DNA of 64,000 bases from contig NZ_AQXI01000004.1 of assembly GCF_000376445.1 (NCBI RefSeq), positions 248,001-312,000 on the forward strand. The letters are read 5' to 3'. The notes beneath the pieces were generated by a model. That model was not told where the DNA came from, did no database searches, and saw only the letters and a list, made by a program, of their open reading frames with translations. Of the stretch, positions 14,132-22,205 are shown one piece after another. Source of the DNA: Haladaptatus paucihalophilus DX253. Its GTDB lineage: Archaea > Halobacteriota > Halobacteria > Halobacteriales > Haladaptataceae. Position 1 is the stretch's first letter. Each line of letters begins with the position of its first letter. Made by a program: the position numbers and the translations under genes.

Positions 14132-14171
14132 TCACGAATCGTGGAGTTCGTTGAGTGCAGGAGAATCAATC

Positions 14172-15053
14172 ATGGCAGGGGAACACAACAGCGGAGAACC
14201 GCGCGCCGTTTCTGTCGGCGTACTCAAAGGCGGGTTCGGAAAGACAACGACGGCGATTAACCTCGCTCGTGAGTTAGCTCATCGAAACGGCTCAGCTCTC
14301 GTTGTCGACCTCGACGACAACGGCCACATGAGCCAGAACCTCGGATTCACAGAACAGTATAGTGCCGAAGAGAATCACGCCGAAGCCGTTCTTATCAACG
14401 GAGAGGATCCAACGCAATACATTCAAACAGTAAGCCACGGGCTCGATATTTTCCCTGCCCACGTGCAACTCGAAGACGTCCAGAGTGGGCTAAAGGAAGC
14501 GACAATGGGAACGACACGACTCAAGGAGAACCTCATCAATCCGCTTCTCGGTGACGAGTACGAGTACATTGTGGTCGACTGTCCAGCAAATCGCGGGAAG
14601 TTGAACGACAACGCCATGTACGCAACAGGGAACATTATCATCCCCCTTCGCGCAGAGAGCGGGTATGAAAGCGGGCTCTCTAGCACTGTTCAACGGCTCG
14701 TTCAAGAAGCACGGCAGTACTTTGAGTTGAACATCCTCGCGATTACACCCACGGACTTACAAGATCGTATCGACCAAGATACCCGCGACCGGTCACTCCT
14801 CAAGGAGATCAACAATCGGGATGGTGTTTCAAAGCTCGTACCGAACTATGCACGAATAACCAGTGATGATTGGGAAGCGATCGATCAAGGGAAACAAAAC
14901 GGTAATCTTCCGGGGATTCGACACCGAGCGGCGATCGATCGTGCGCACGATGAAGGTGTTCCACTTCGAGACTACGATGAGGCGTGCGATCAGCTCGAAG
15001 CCTACGACGAGCTCGCTCAAATCGTCGAGCAGGGGGAGGTGGTGCACAAATGA
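14172..15053 (+). CDS. parA: ParA family ATPase (partition system 1)
   Basis: 293 residues from MAGEHNSGEP. The deviant Walker A motif is KGGFGKTTT (about residues 19-27) and the Walker B region is YIVVDCPANRGKLNDNAM. Start at 14172 leaves the signature near the N terminus, so there is no separate DNA-binding extension (type Ib-like). Overlaps the partner gene by ATGA (15050-15053), so the two are translationally coupled. ParA ATPases move plasmid copies by binding nucleoid DNA and a partner bound at centromere repeats. Homologous to 61921-62793. Shares PNYARIT and GIRHRAAIDRA-type blocks with it. Confidence 0.92.
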   Translation: MAGEHNSGEPRAVSVGVLKGGFGKTTTAINLARELAHRNGSALVVDLDDNGHMSQNLGFTEQYSAEENHAEAVLINGEDPTQYIQTVSHGLDIFPAHVQLEDVQSGLKEATMGTTRLKENLINPLLGDEYEYIVVDCPANRGKLNDNAMYATGNIIIPLRAESGYESGLSSTVQRLVQEARQYFELNILAITPTDLQDRIDQDTRDRSLLKEINNRDGVSKLVPNYARITSDDWEAIDQGKQNGNLPGIRHRAAIDRAHDEGVPLRDYDEACDQLEAYDELAQIVEQGEVVHK

Positions 15054-17331: not shown

Positions 17332-17621
17332 TCATGGATATTCGCCTTGGCAATGCGCTCTCGGCTCGACGTTGTTAGTGCCGCGAATCTTCCCGTATCT
17401 TCAGTTTTACTTCCGCTCTGGTTGGCTGACGTCTTTATCCATCGGATACGAAGCGTCGATTGCAGTCAGCGTACCCCAGTAGACGACGTGAGCTCCTGGC
17501 CCAGACCAACCCATCTTTCCACGTCGTTTGCTCGTTCCCCTTGTTACGATAAGCTAGGTAGTGTCACGAGTGGACTCTGTCCGAGGGCTTACCTGTCGTG
17601 TCCTCGAATTTGGTCGCACGT
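17332..17621. other. intergenic region
   Basis: 290 bases with no gene recognised on either strand. It separates the origin-side gene from the small + strand gene at 17622. Confidence 0.4.
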
Positions 17622-17858
17622 ATGGGTCCAAACGAGACGTCGCCGCTCACTCCACTTGCGCAAGAAGCACTTGATGCGCTCGCGAGCACACTCCCACCCG
17701 GTGGTGAACTTACTTACGAGCAAACCTATGCTATTCTAGCTGAGAAAGAAGATCTCGAGCGGCCTGCTGCCGAAGATATCATCGAACGATTGTACAATAA
17801 GGGCCATGTTTACGAAGTCGAAGGAAAACTCCGACTCACTGATTACGGGGCTGAATAG
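17622..17858 (+). CDS. small winged-helix-like hypothetical protein
   Basis: 78 residues from MGPNETSPLTPLAQEALDAL. The pattern of helices (TYEQTYAILAEKEDLERPAA, EDIIERLYNKGHVYEV) and a final beta-hairpin (EGKLRLTDYG) fits a small winged helix-turn-helix. A start at 17598 adds eight weakly supported residues. It precedes the Orc1/Cdc6-like gene by 229 bp. Role unknown, perhaps replication control. Confidence 0.6.
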   Translation: MGPNETSPLTPLAQEALDALASTLPPGGELTYEQTYAILAEKEDLERPAAEDIIERLYNKGHVYEVEGKLRLTDYGAE

Positions 17859-18087
17859 CGAAGCCGTCATGTTTTGTCAATCATTATTCAGGAGACGATC
17901 GAACCAGCGTCACACTTGATTACGGCATCCAGATCGTCGCTTCGATCTAGTGTGGAAAACGGTCGAGATACCACTGCTTCTTATTGGGTGTCGTCAATAC
18001 CGCTCCTGAACGGACGATGTTTTCGGAAGAATTGGAACTTGCCCACTTCCGTTTATTATCGCGGGCGGAATAGACACGGACAACACA

Positions 18088-19089
18088 ATGATTCACGATG
18101 CTCGCGTCCTGCAACCACAGTTCGTCCCGGAAGAGGTCGAGCATCGCAACGCCGAGATCAACACCCTCTCGAATACACTCAAACCCATCATGGACGGTCA
18201 AAACGGCGAAACATCGCTCCTATTGGGACCGTCCGGCGCGGGGAAAACCTGTATCGCGAAGTTCACCATCGAGCGACTACGTGAGAACGTTCTCGATATC
18301 GACCGCCAGTACGTCAACTGCTGGCAGGATTACACGCGATTTCAAGTCCTCTATCGTATTCTCGAAGGCATTGGCGAAACTGTCAACATCCATCGTCGAT
18401 CGACACCGAAAGACGAACTCCTCGACCGTCTTCAGCGGTACGATGGACCACAGTTCATCGTCATCCTCGACGAAGTCGACCAACTCGAAGACAAGAGCGT
18501 CTTGTATGATTTGTATCGGATGCCGACCATCTCGATGGTACTCATTACGAACCGCGAGGACGAGCTATTTTCCCATCTCGACGGTCGATTGGCCAGCCGG
18601 TTGCGGACGTGTGTTCGCGTTCCGTTCGAAAAGTACCACCTCGACGAACTCGTTTCGATCCTTCGTGCTCGTGTCCAATGGGGACTTTCGGAAGGCGCAA
18701 TCGGAAACCAGGAACTCGAACTGATCGCAGACGCAGCAGCGGGTGATGCACGGGTCGCAATCGGCATTCTCAGGAACGCGGCACGTCGCGCCGACCAGAG
18801 TGGTCTGGATTACATTTCAACCGATATCGTTGATGAGGCAATCCCGGATGGCCAGCGCGAAGTTCGGCAGAAAACGATCAGTCAACTCAACGCTCATCAG
18901 CGCGCCCTCTACGACATTTTGGAAGAAGAGGGTGAACTCAATCCAGGGGAACTCTACGAGGCATATCAGGAACGCGTCGAGAATCCGAAAACAAATCGGA
19001 CAGTCAGAAATCACCTCTCGAAAATGGAGCACTATCGGCTCGTCGTGGCCGATGGGAAGAATCGAGCGCGAACATACCAACTCCGCTGA
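18088..19089 (+). CDS. Orc1/Cdc6-family AAA+ ATPase
   Basis: 333 residues. Walker A GPSGAGKT (about residues 48-55), Walker B FIVILDEVDQ (about 125-134), sensor-type ITNRED, arginine region SRLRTCVRVPF, and lid GDARVAIGILRNAARRAD. The C-terminal winged helix includes LNAHQRALYDILEEEGEL and RTVRNHLSKMEHYRLV. It is shorter than replicative Orc1/Cdc6 (about 400) and belongs to a divergent group. It can bind DNA and load or recruit replication factors. It lies 1.2 kb from the putative origin and heads the PolB cassette, so it may serve either. Confidence 0.87.
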   Translation: MIHDARVLQPQFVPEEVEHRNAEINTLSNTLKPIMDGQNGETSLLLGPSGAGKTCIAKFTIERLRENVLDIDRQYVNCWQDYTRFQVLYRILEGIGETVNIHRRSTPKDELLDRLQRYDGPQFIVILDEVDQLEDKSVLYDLYRMPTISMVLITNREDELFSHLDGRLASRLRTCVRVPFEKYHLDELVSILRARVQWGLSEGAIGNQELELIADAAAGDARVAIGILRNAARRADQSGLDYISTDIVDEAIPDGQREVRQKTISQLNAHQRALYDILEEEGELNPGELYEAYQERVENPKTNRTVRNHLSKMEHYRLVVADGKNRARTYQLR

Positions 19090-19161
19090 TTCGCGCTTTC
19101 GGAAGCGTTGGAAACGACCCAGTCTTGCCTATGGTTGTACCGAGAGACACGTCTATTCGTG

Positions 19162-19842
19162 ATGATGAATCAGAACTCACCGACGCTTCCGACGCTCGGC
19201 AGTGGAATAACACTTCTCGAAGTGGATGACCGAACGACTGGTGCACTTCAGTCGCTCGTTCTCGACCACCTCTTGCTCGAAGATGGCTCTGCCATCTGGG
19301 TTGATGCACAGAGACACGGAGCCACACAGCCACTCGCACGAATTGCACCATCGATGCGCTTGCTCGACCGCATTCGTATCGCTCGTGCGTTCACGCCGTG
19401 GCAACATTCGAGCCTTCTGCAGGACCTCAAGTCGGCCGTCACGGCTGACACGACGCTCGTGATTCTCCCCGCGTTCGACTGGTTCTACCGCTCCGACGAC
19501 TTGGGTCAGGGTGATGGAAAACGGATGCTGGCAGCGGGTCTCGAGTTCGTCACCGAACTCGCGGGTGAAACCGACAGTCCGATTCTAGTGACTCTGGATT
19601 CCGACGATTCGTTTACCGCACCGATTCGAGCGGCGGTAGACGACGTCGTTCGTTGTCGAGGGACGACGTTCGGCCCTCGATTTACCGGCGACGACTTCGA
19701 AACGCTGGTCTACTCGCTGGAGAACGGCTTGGTGCAGACGACATTCGCGTTTTGGAAACAGGTGCTCACGACGCGGCATCCATCTATCGAAGGTGCGAGT
19801 GCCACCACTCGAACGGAGGTGAGCCTCCATGGGGCGAACTAA
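19162..19842 (+). CDS. RecA/RadA-fold-like protein without a Walker A motif
   Basis: 226 residues from MMNQNSPTLP; a start at 19108 adds 18 unlikely residues. The order GSAIWVDAQRHGATQPLAR, RIRIARAFTPWQHSSLLQDL and TTLVILPAFDWFYRSDDL mimics the RadA/KaiC core (strand with the donor acid, VARAF-type helix, Walker B strand), but no P-loop is present. Probably an inactive RecA-like accessory subunit. It overlaps the next gene by 14 bp in the cassette with the polymerase. Assignment to the fold is by pattern only. Confidence 0.6.
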   Translation: MMNQNSPTLPTLGSGITLLEVDDRTTGALQSLVLDHLLLEDGSAIWVDAQRHGATQPLARIAPSMRLLDRIRIARAFTPWQHSSLLQDLKSAVTADTTLVILPAFDWFYRSDDLGQGDGKRMLAAGLEFVTELAGETDSPILVTLDSDDSFTAPIRAAVDDVVRCRGTTFGPRFTGDDFETLVYSLENGLVQTTFAFWKQVLTTRHPSIEGASATTRTEVSLHGAN

Positions 19843-20101
19843 TTCGACGTATCGTGACCTCCTTCGGGCGATGGAGAATCGATGGGGGGAGTATCGACGC
19901 GGCCTTCGTCGTGCTGACCAGCAGGTGTTCGACCGGCTGTTCGAGTTTGCACGGGCACACGCGGATGCGAGCGGATTGCAGACGCCTCGGCTCGTAGAAA
20001 TCCCCGCTCTCGTCTCGATTATCCTCGAACAGCAAAAGCAGATTGACGACCTCGAAGACCGTCTCGACCATCTCGAGCAGGATCTCAACGATCGGGAATG
20101 A
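19829..20101 (+). CDS. small helical/coiled-coil protein of the PolB cassette
   Basis: 90 residues, almost entirely helical. The C-terminal third (IILEQQKQIDDLEDRLDHLEQ) is a clear coiled coil. N-terminal RDLLRAMENRWGEYRRGLRRADQ is amphipathic. It overlaps the preceding gene by 14 bp and ends 4 bp before the polymerase start, so it is tightly coupled to both. Likely a bridging subunit between the RecA-like protein and the polymerase; no family name recognised. Confidence 0.72.
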   Translation: MGRTNSTYRDLLRAMENRWGEYRRGLRRADQQVFDRLFEFARAHADASGLQTPRLVEIPALVSIILEQQKQIDDLEDRLDHLEQDLNDRE

Positions 20102-20105
20102 GACG

Positions 20106-22205
20106 ATGGTGTACAAAATCGACTCCGTTGACGGCGACGTGTTCAGGTGGTCGGTAACCGAGTCGGGGGTGGAATGTGAAGTAGATGAATCGTACACGCC
20201 GACGATCCATGTGTCCGTCCATGGTGATGGCGACTTTTCGACGGCACGTGCTGCACTTCGGGACCATCCTGCCGTTACGCGGGTTGCTGTGGTTGAGGGA
20301 CGCGTGAGCTTTCGGCACGACCCCGAGCAAGTACTCCGAGTGGATGTAGTTGACCTCAAGGCGGTGAATTCAGTGGCACGAATGGTGAGCAAGTGGGGCT
20401 CTCCTGGTGAGTATCGCTGCTACAACGTTGATTTCTCGCGAGAGTTCCGCTACTGTCTCGAAGAAGGAATCGATCCGTTGCCGAAACACGAACTCTCGAA
20501 GATGCAGATTGCTGTGTCGGAGACGGAGCTTGCGAGTGAGCAAGTTACTGAACTTACGATCGACGATGAGATGGTGACTGGGAGTGGTGCGGACGTGTTA
20601 ACGGCATTGTCGGCTCGTGTTGAGTCGGTTGACCCCGACGTTCTGTTCCTGAACACCAGTGACCTCATTCCCATCCTCTTCCAGCAGGCCGACCGACTCG
20701 ACGTAGAGTTCCAGCTTGGACGACGACCCGGATGGCAGCAGTTGGCGGGTGAATCGACCTACGAAAGCTACGGGCAAGTCGGGCACTCCCCGGCACGCTA
20801 CAATCTGCCCGGTCGGGTGATCATCGATGGCTCGAATACGTTCATGTGGAATCAGACGAATCTCGACGGCTGTCTGTATCTCGTCGAGCAGTCGGGCAAA
20901 CCGCTGCAGGAGTTGGCATGGTCCTCGATTGGGAATGTTCTGACCGGGATTCAGATCCAAGAAGCTCGTGAACGGGATGTGCTTGTCCCGTGGCGTTCGT
21001 GGCGACACGAGCAGTTCAAAACGATGCGCCAGTTGCACGACGCCGACCGAGGTGGGTTCACGTTTACACCGGACGTCGGGCTGCACGAGGATGTCCACGA
21101 ACTCGACTTCTCCTCGTTGTATCCGAGTATCATCGTCACGCGGAATGTGAGCCCTGAGAAGATTCGGTGTGAGTGCCATGCTGGTCGAGAAGATGTGCCG
21201 GGCATCGGGTATTCGATTTGTGATGAGCGTGGGTACCTTCCGGATGTGCTTGAGCCGTTGATCGAAGATCGTGATGCGATTAAAGCCGAGATTCGGGAGA
21301 CTGAGGACGAAGAACGTCGCGACGAGTTGGAAGGCCAATCGAGTGCGATCAAGTGGATTTTGGTCTCCTGTTTCGGCTATCAGGGGTTTTCGAACGCGAA
21401 GTTCGGACGGATCGAGTGCCACGAGGCGATCAACGCGTATGCTCGGGAGATTCTGTTGGAGACGAAAGCAGTGCTCGAGGAGAACGGGTGGCGCATTGTG
21501 CATGGTATCGTCGATAGTGTGTGGGTGACGCCGATCGAAGGCGAGGAACAGACGTCGCTTTCGGAGCTTGTCTCGGAGATTTCTGAAGAAGTGGAAATTC
21601 GGCTCGAACACGAAGCGCACTACGACTGGATTGCGTTTGTGCCATTGCGTGATTCGGATGCTGGTGCCTTGACGAAGTACTTCGGGAAGGTCGCTGATGA
21701 GGACGCGTACAAGTATCGGGGCATCGAGTGTCGCCAGCGGAGTACGCCGTCGTATATCGATGAGGCGCAGAAAGCGTTGATTCGAGCGGTGGATGCGTAT
21801 CGTGATCCAGAGGCGGTGTGTGGGGAACTACGGTCGTGGGTCAATCGTCTTGAGCGTGGGGTAGTCGATCCGAGTGAGTTGGTGATCACGAATCGTGTTT
21901 CGAAAAAGCGGGAGGACTACACGCAATCGACGCGGAGTGTGGCGGCACTGGAGCGGGCGGCGGATTTGGGGTTGGCGCGTGCGCCTGGTCAGAGTGTCTC
22001 GTATGTGGTGGTGGACGATTCGAAGAAATCGCGGGAGCGGGTGAAATTGGCAAGTGAGGAGGTAGACGAGTATGATGTCGAGTTTTATCGGGAGTTGTTG
22101 GTTCGTGCGACAGCGAGTGTATTGTCACCGCTTGGGTGGCGAGAATTGGATATTGAACGGGAGTTAGAGCAGTATACCGAGTCGAGTTTGACGTCGTTTA
22201 GGTAA
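20106..22205 (+). CDS. polB: divergent family B DNA polymerase (PolB2-type)
   Basis: 699 residues from MVYKIDSVDG. Polymerase motif A is LDFSSLYPSIIV with Asp334. Motif B is in IKWILVSCFGYQG with Lys416. Motif C is HGIVDSVWV with Asp470, so the usual YGDTDS has lost its first aspartate. The exonuclease region (about residues 130-220) lacks the DIE motif, so proofreading is probably absent. Archaeal PolB2 proteins share these changes. Start 4 bp after the coiled-coil gene. Likely an accessory, repair or translesion-type polymerase rather than the main replicase. Confidence 0.9.
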   Translation: MVYKIDSVDGDVFRWSVTESGVECEVDESYTPTIHVSVHGDGDFSTARAALRDHPAVTRVAVVEGRVSFRHDPEQVLRVDVVDLKAVNSVARMVSKWGSPGEYRCYNVDFSREFRYCLEEGIDPLPKHELSKMQIAVSETELASEQVTELTIDDEMVTGSGADVLTALSARVESVDPDVLFLNTSDLIPILFQQADRLDVEFQLGRRPGWQQLAGESTYESYGQVGHSPARYNLPGRVIIDGSNTFMWNQTNLDGCLYLVEQSGKPLQELAWSSIGNVLTGIQIQEARERDVLVPWRSWRHEQFKTMRQLHDADRGGFTFTPDVGLHEDVHELDFSSLYPSIIVTRNVSPEKIRCECHAGREDVPGIGYSICDERGYLPDVLEPLIEDRDAIKAEIRETEDEERRDELEGQSSAIKWILVSCFGYQGFSNAKFGRIECHEAINAYAREILLETKAVLEENGWRIVHGIVDSVWVTPIEGEEQTSLSELVSEISEEVEIRLEHEAHYDWIAFVPLRDSDAGALTKYFGKVADEDAYKYRGIECRQRSTPSYIDEAQKALIRAVDAYRDPEAVCGELRSWVNRLERGVVDPSELVITNRVSKKREDYTQSTRSVAALERAADLGLARAPGQSVSYVVVDDSKKSRERVKLASEEVDEYDVEFYRELLVRATASVLSPLGWRELDIERELEQYTESSLTSFR

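Follow-up and report, generated by a model that had tools for sequence, protein, structure and literature searches.

In archaea, the iRadA-PPB2-PolB2 operon has been modelled as a translesion synthesis "mutasome" and compared with Escherichia coli Pol V (Timinskas et al. 2025, PMC11791011). The operon had already been noted in 2014, when many of its neighbourhoods in Euryarchaeota were reported to include an arORC2 gene (Makarova et al. 2014, PMC4104785), and orc1/cdc6 genes are enriched near archaeal polB2 (PMC11791011). In Sulfolobus, the non-initiator Orc1 protein Orc1-2 binds its own promoter and those of damage-response genes (PMC9738581). Here we describe a locus of Haladaptatus paucihalophilus DX253 which lies in a stretch of 64 kb (hereafter the window, bases 248001-312000 of the 316,765 bp contig C4, in a genome of six contigs and 4.32 Mb). 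The locus is a further member of the published PolB2 mutasome, the core system being already known. It is probably a haloarchaeal plasmid-type version of this operon with an Orc1/Cdc6-type regulator of its own, here called Cdc6L, as suggested by a promoter sequence, the Cdc6L box, which precedes both cdc6L and iRadA. The features concerned are as follows, in window coordinates.

18024-18056, + strand: Cdc6L box and TATA of the cdc6L promoter, CGGAAGAATTGGAACTTGCCCACTTCCGTTTAT (strict-pattern match, G000:C4:266024-266056)
18088-19089, + strand: Cdc6L, Orc1/Cdc6-like AAA+ ATPase with winged helix, 333 aa, the proposed regulator (Pfam, PDB profile, Walker motifs)
19100-19132, + strand: Cdc6L box and TATA-like element before iRadA, CGGAAGCGTTGGAAACGACCCAGTCTTGCCTAT (strict-pattern match, G000:C4:267100-267132)
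19162-19842, + strand: iRadA, RadA-fold protein without ATPase motifs, 226 aa (Pfam, profile, AlphaFold2 model, Foldseek)
19829-20101, + strand: PPB2 (arCOG07300), helical protein of 90 aa starting with MGRT (invariant G2 and R3; MGRT motif of PMC11791011)
20106-22205, + strand: PolB2, B-family polymerase with HGIVDS for YGDTDS, DR motif D314-R315 and no detected exonuclease domain (Pfam, relatives)

The Cdc6L box has the consensus CGGAA-N4/5-YGGAAAC-N-ACCC and lies just upstream of TATA: in the regions upstream of cdc6L, tandem GGAA half-sites are followed by AC.ACCC and then by the TATA region. It occurs twice in the window, before cdc6L and before iRadA, and these are also the only two matches of a looser pattern, against a mean of 0.26 in shuffled versions of the window (two or more in 4 of 100 shuffles). 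The window count alone is modest, and the weight of the evidence on the box comes from relatives. Across the genome of the strain itself the loose pattern had 7 matches in 5 places, against 3 for the control; the places at C1:2039435 and C2:100242 were judged chance-like.

Relatives were taken from 292 Halobacteria genomes, one per species and evenly drawn, and from named loci chosen by similarity to the window PolB2 (79 fetched, 71 with a long PolB2, 59 of those with 8 kb or more of DNA upstream). With a matrix built exclusively from cdc6L promoters (63 non-redundant ones, which supplied 51 sites) and a cut-off of 12 bits, the box was detected upstream of iRadA in 34 of 59 non-redundant cases, against 1 of 1180 dinucleotide shuffles and 2 of 59 on the reverse strand. 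At the same cut-off it was detected in 4 of 60 PolB2 upstream regions and in 39 of 5000 stretches drawn at random from these loci (true sites included), and in none of the upstream regions of 44 PPB2 genes, 13 small winged-helix genes and 27 other Orc1/Cdc6 genes. A matrix trained jointly on Cdc6L and iRadA sites was set aside for the iRadA count as circular. A strict pattern returned 117 sites in 84 of the 292 genomes, versus 2 for a backward control, and the gene downstream was cdc6L in 53 cases, iRadA in 22, PPB2 in 3 and PolB2 in 2, in sum 80. From the second GGAA to the start codon the distance is 53-64 at cdc6L and, in most cases, 63-83 at iRadA, and that from TATA to start, for the labelled genes at strict-pattern sites, is mostly 25-27 nt. 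Short TATA-to-start distances of this kind fit leaderless haloarchaeal transcripts. As a conserved, directional promoter sequence feature common to cdc6L and mutasome genes, the Cdc6L box is strong; no published account of it was found among open-licence full texts, which is a weak negative.

The box might also be a mere strong basal promoter (transcription factor B recognition element/TATA context) or the site of another regulator, with Cdc6L acting as a protein partner, for example as a loader of the mutasome onto DNA or PCNA. In favour of this, the TATA region is where the box ends, Cdc6L has conserved AAA+ motifs, and cdc6L and iRadA are spaced by 72 bp in the window. A basal element would however be expected at very many genes, rather than at 117 strict sites in 292 genomes with 80 of them at these genes, and cdc6L genes that stand without a mutasome have the box too; we regard this explanation as quite improbable. 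A second alternative is that Cdc6L is a plasmid replication initiator and the box an origin recognition box, with the mutasome adjacent since both ride on plasmids. Cdc6L is in the archaeal initiator family, a parA gene lies on the same contig, the relative in Halobacterium salinarum is annotated "DNA replication protein Orc1", and Orc1 proteins are able to bind beside their own gene. Against this, the box has a single orientation and a near-fixed distance to TATA and start codon, it stands elsewhere before iRadA, PPB2 and PolB2 as well, and it is missing from the 27 other Orc1/Cdc6 promoters of the same loci. Moreover, orc1 of Halobacterium NRC-1 was lost spontaneously in the host strain of a knockout study, and the cells remained viable (PMC1906834). 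A role of the orc neighbour in alternative replication initiation or in the regulation of origin recognition was considered by Makarova et al. (PMC4104785); for the locus described here we regard the initiator explanation as unlikely.

The best reading is that Cdc6L regulates transcription of the mutasome and of its own gene, as a putative haloarchaeal counterpart of Sulfolobus Orc1-2 that uses another box, and the promoter box common to cdc6L and the mutasome makes regulator the likeliest role for the upstream ATPase. Consistent with this, an iRadA box of at least 8 bits was found in 25 of 32 genomes with Cdc6L and in none of 5 without it (Fisher p 0.0018; 37 genomes with a usable iRadA upstream region), in a comparison that counts five Cdc6L-less genomes, ignores kinship, uses a threshold set by the authors and takes the best iRadA per genome.

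Several observations weigh against this reading. Seven of the 32 genomes with Cdc6L have no scoring iRadA box, and one of the five without Cdc6L has tandem GGAA half-sites. Of the 117 strict sites, 37 are outside labelled Cdc6L or mutasome genes (other or unassigned); among them are five nearly identical sites at a single enoyl-CoA-hydratase-like frame (read from sequence), which look chance-like in related genomes, one site at a stand-alone exonuclease (L257), and at least one at an iRadA gene missed by the choice of open reading frame (L278). Among the best 150 Cdc6L places listed, 67 have no PolB2 listed within 25 kb of them. Twenty such PolB2-less places were fetched: 18 had no mutasome gene in the stretch, one had iRadA with a piece of PPB2, and one had a divergent operon. 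The Sulfolobus DDRE box ANTTTC is absent, by inspection, from the Cdc6L box consensus on either strand. The UV array papers on NRC-1 mention neither polB2 nor orc in their main texts, and the UV-B motif reported for this strain, TTTCACTTTCA, differs from the Cdc6L box (PMC2556686). The spontaneous loss of orc1 in the NRC-1 knockout host may or may not be relevant here.

Cdc6L itself belongs to the Orc1/Cdc6 AAA+ family, in agreement with the Orc1/Cdc6-like ATPase of the original prediction, which had left its role unexplained. Its Pfam match to Cdc6_lid is above the cut-off (9.9e-14) and that to Cdc6_C below it (0.0037), its profile matches the archaeal Orc1/Cdc6 structure 2qby_A in the PDB (1.7e-31, positions 6-326 of 328), and Walker A (GPSGAGKT) and Walker B (DEVD) motifs can be read from the sequence, the AAA+ ATPase motifs being conserved in relatives. 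Cdc6L-like proteins, other Orc1/Cdc6 paralogues included, are found in 222 of the 292 genomes (E<=1e-40). The family was delimited by score, since Orc1/Cdc6 hits of near-complete length, of which the named loci contain 97, split into groups of 325-413 and 449-484 bits; the upper group, taken as Cdc6L, comprises 37 genes, 36 of them on the PolB2 strand. Among the best 150 Cdc6L places listed, at least 83 have PolB2 within 25 kb, and in 82 of these 83 PolB2 lies downstream on the same strand. Cdc6L nevertheless occurs without mutasome genes and is therefore not dedicated to the mutasome; its classification as a mutasome-dedicated gene was rejected, as it is also found alone.

With the jointly trained matrix, boxes were also detected before members of the L257 exonuclease family in L188 and L192 and before a PD-(D/E)XK nuclease gene in L195, all beside lone cdc6L genes (the Pfam scan behind these nuclease calls was of L188 and the L193 relative). 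Box-like sequences were further noted before large DDE-transposase-like genes adjoining lone cdc6L genes (L192:17446, L188:8370, L195:8250).

The three core genes are tightly packed, and the 14 bp overlap of iRadA and PPB2 (19829-19842) and the 4 bp gap between PPB2 and PolB2 (20102-20105) match the coordinates of the open reading frames, as had been described from the sequence at the outset. The same first description of iRadA as a RecA-fold-like protein without a P-loop is borne out: the motif GxxxxGK[ST] is absent from the 226 aa translation, and structure prediction points to a RadA-like fold without the ATPase residues. The Pfam match to Rad51 is weak (0.038), and the iRadA family profile matches RadA in the PDB at E 7.9e-5. 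The AlphaFold2 model is of middling confidence (mean pLDDT 73.7, with residues 182-206 and 208-226 below 50), and its 50 best Foldseek matches in the PDB are all RadA, Rad51 or Dmc1 structures or complexes (best E 2.8e-11, TM 0.51-0.60, root-mean-square deviation about 5-7). Matches to iRadA are found in 177 of the 292 genomes (E<=1e-3). PPB2 begins with MGRTNSTYRD, and G2 and R3 are invariant in 37 of 37 non-redundant relatives; the MGRT motif is a described feature of PPB2, and second PPB2 copies without it are also on record (PMC11791011).

PolB2 matches DNA_pol_B in Pfam (9.7e-27). It carries HGIVDS with D470 in place of YGDTDS, a substitution seen at the outset and now found to be invariant in 29 of 29 non-redundant relatives, and the D(K/R) motif is kept as D314-R315 in the same number. 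The exonuclease motif reported missing has no counterpart in the Pfam scan up to E 1 either. PolB2 matches occur in 188 of the 292 genomes (E<=1e-50). The first catalytic Asp of the DxD motif is replaced by Ile, and several partial PolB2 copies are present in this genome and in other Haladaptatus loci, as would be expected if PolB2 were here a catalytically dead relic carried on plasmids. The corresponding polymerase of S. islandicus (Dpo2), with IID at this site, is however active, extends mispaired ends and is required for targeted mutagenesis (PMC11791011), and the palm motifs and D470 are invariant in 29 of 29 relatives, which indicates that PolB2 is under selection; we regard a dead relic as very unlikely. 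A viral origin of PolB2 was rejected: no relative was found among viral contigs, and phage matches were weak or distant, the best being a Leptospira phage PolB with 28.9% identity. Many haloarchaeal PolB2 proteins finish in a short L-x-x-F/Y motif (SSLTSF, ELTEF, DLAAF; window 22150-22202), which might be a degenerate PCNA-binding motif; among 90 distinct C-termini, 40 fit a loose pattern and none a strict QxxLxxFF-like pattern.

The genes of the operon co-occur widely, as the original prediction had supposed. Upstream of PolB2 on the same strand, the 59 named loci contain iRadA in 50 cases, PPB2 in 55 (directly adjacent in 32) and a high-scoring Cdc6L in 35. Many operons are interrupted between PPB2 and PolB2, with insertions that include TnpB (IS605) and a stand-alone RNase H-type exonuclease. 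The latter lies directly 3' of PPB2 in 6 of 12 split operons inspected (L114, L119, L124, L144, L159, L162); in L144 (6019-6663) it matches RNase_H_2 at 3.6e-7 and, weakly, the PolB exonuclease, and the neighbouring PolB2 has no exonuclease of its own. Relatives of this exonuclease beside lone cdc6L genes have the Cdc6L box. In several species, Halobacterium salinarum among them, the TnpB gene (OrfB_IS605) stops some 240 bp short of PolB2 (L124, L119, L144, L150, L157, L167; L207:7421-8761), and in L150 and L167 an extra copy of the first 29 PolB2 codons stands ahead of the insertion. A gene for an SRAP (HMCES-like) protein lies on the opposite strand between cdc6L and iRadA in L116, L127, L136 (7130-7816, minus) and L148; enrichment of SRAP near polB2 was already reported (PMC11791011). 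In the window, an 86 aa winged-helix-like protein with a weak TrmB match (0.026) is encoded upstream of cdc6L (17598-17858) and recurs near PolB2 in several Haladaptatus loci.

Contig C4 is likely a large plasmid, given its size of 316,765 bp and its ParA gene (window 14151-15053). At E<=1e-5 PolB2 matches 164 plasmid records, a number that includes other PolBs (7 of the records are from Escherichia, for example); in 89 records the match spans 80% or more of PolB2. In the best rows of this search the closest plasmid relatives are from Haladaptatus, with 88-92% identity. A second PolB2, 91% identical to that of the window, is found on C4 at 124733-126826, in a set (G000:C4:124419-126826) which has lost iRadA and kept the Cdc6L box. 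There the reading frame passes directly from the first codons downstream of the box to about residue 19 of PPB2, and the second-copy PPB2 consequently lacks MGRT. Likewise, the named loci include 15 from Haladaptatus, and in 6 of these (L101, L104, L105, L106, L109, L165) PPB2 from about profile position 13 adjoins PolB2, with no intact iRadA upstream.

By analogy with the published family, iRadA, PPB2 and PolB2 would form a translesion polymerase complex, in which iRadA, as a pseudo-RecA, would dock PolB2, the MGRT arm of the PPB2 trimer would link PolB2 and iRadA, and PolB2 would extend damaged or mispaired ends. Cdc6L, presumably an Orc1/Cdc6 paralogue turned transcription regulator, would bind the box upstream of, and reaching into, the core promoters of cdc6L and iRadA, and would thereby set its own level and that of the mutasome together. 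Under replication stress it would probably release or activate both promoters. Because the second half-site extends up to the stretch immediately ahead of TATA, we lean slightly towards repression lifted by stress; activation by Cdc6L is nearly as likely. More broadly, we see about an even chance that these elements make up an SOS-like haloarchaeal circuit, in which Cdc6L would read the tandem GGAA box and control its own gene, the PolB2 mutasome on plasmids and, in strains other than this one, a stand-alone RNase H-type exonuclease and a PD-(D/E)XK nuclease, with plasmids carrying and exchanging a regulated mutator module. The bacterial plasmid pKM101 with mucAB offers a parallel for such a module.

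This touches on how the PolB2 operon is switched in Euryarchaeota and on the roles of the many Orc1/Cdc6 paralogues of haloarchaea, and both questions can be tested in transformable haloarchaea by way of a 33 bp box whose set of sites is narrow. A model strain is at hand, since the box is present in the promoter of Halobacterium NRC-1 orc1 on pNRC200 (AGAAGATTCGGAAACGACACCC) and, in degenerate form, at polB2 of H. salinarum R1. Strains deleted for polB2 are reported to be viable in NRC-1 (PMC1906834) and, as unpublished work, in H. volcanii. If the proposed regulation is true, the recruitment of initiator-family proteins as stress regulators took place in a second lineage of archaea as well, where the box is another one.

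Among known systems, the published PolB2 mutasome, whose hallmarks include a PPB2 trimer and a heteropentamer, resembles the locus in gene order, the MGRT start of PPB2, the D(K/R) motif, the lost DxD, the ATPase-less RadA and the nearby orc1/cdc6 gene, and no difference was found in the three core proteins. Every sequence hallmark of that operon that was examined is present, the decayed proofreading exonuclease included. The cassette shares with E. coli Pol V (UmuD'2C-RecA) and bacterial ImuA-ImuB-DnaE2 the combination of a RecA-like helper, a partner and an error-prone polymerase, whereas the polymerases belong to unrelated families. The idea of an archaeal counterpart of ImuA-ImuB-DnaE2, put forward in the original prediction, accordingly stands as to logic, with a pseudo-RecA, a small partner and an altered PolB in one operon (cf. 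PMC11791011); the system had however already been described and named, and the cassette is not a member of ImuA-ImuB-DnaE2, because the Pfam scan found DNA_pol_B only and no Y-family or C-family polymerase domain. The UV-B motif of NRC-1 is likewise a direct-repeat promoter motif upstream of TATA suggested to be the site of a damage regulator, and differs in sequence and in the genes concerned (radA1, vng17, top6B, vng280; PMC2556686). Sulfolobus Orc1-2 shares with Cdc6L an Orc1/Cdc6 gene whose promoter box is common to other genes; the system described here differs in its tandem GGAA half-sites just upstream of TATA, in its narrow set of sites and in that binding by Cdc6L and a damage response are putative. 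What is new here is the specific Cdc6L family beside the operon, the common promoter box, the plasmid-type location and the second copy without iRadA.

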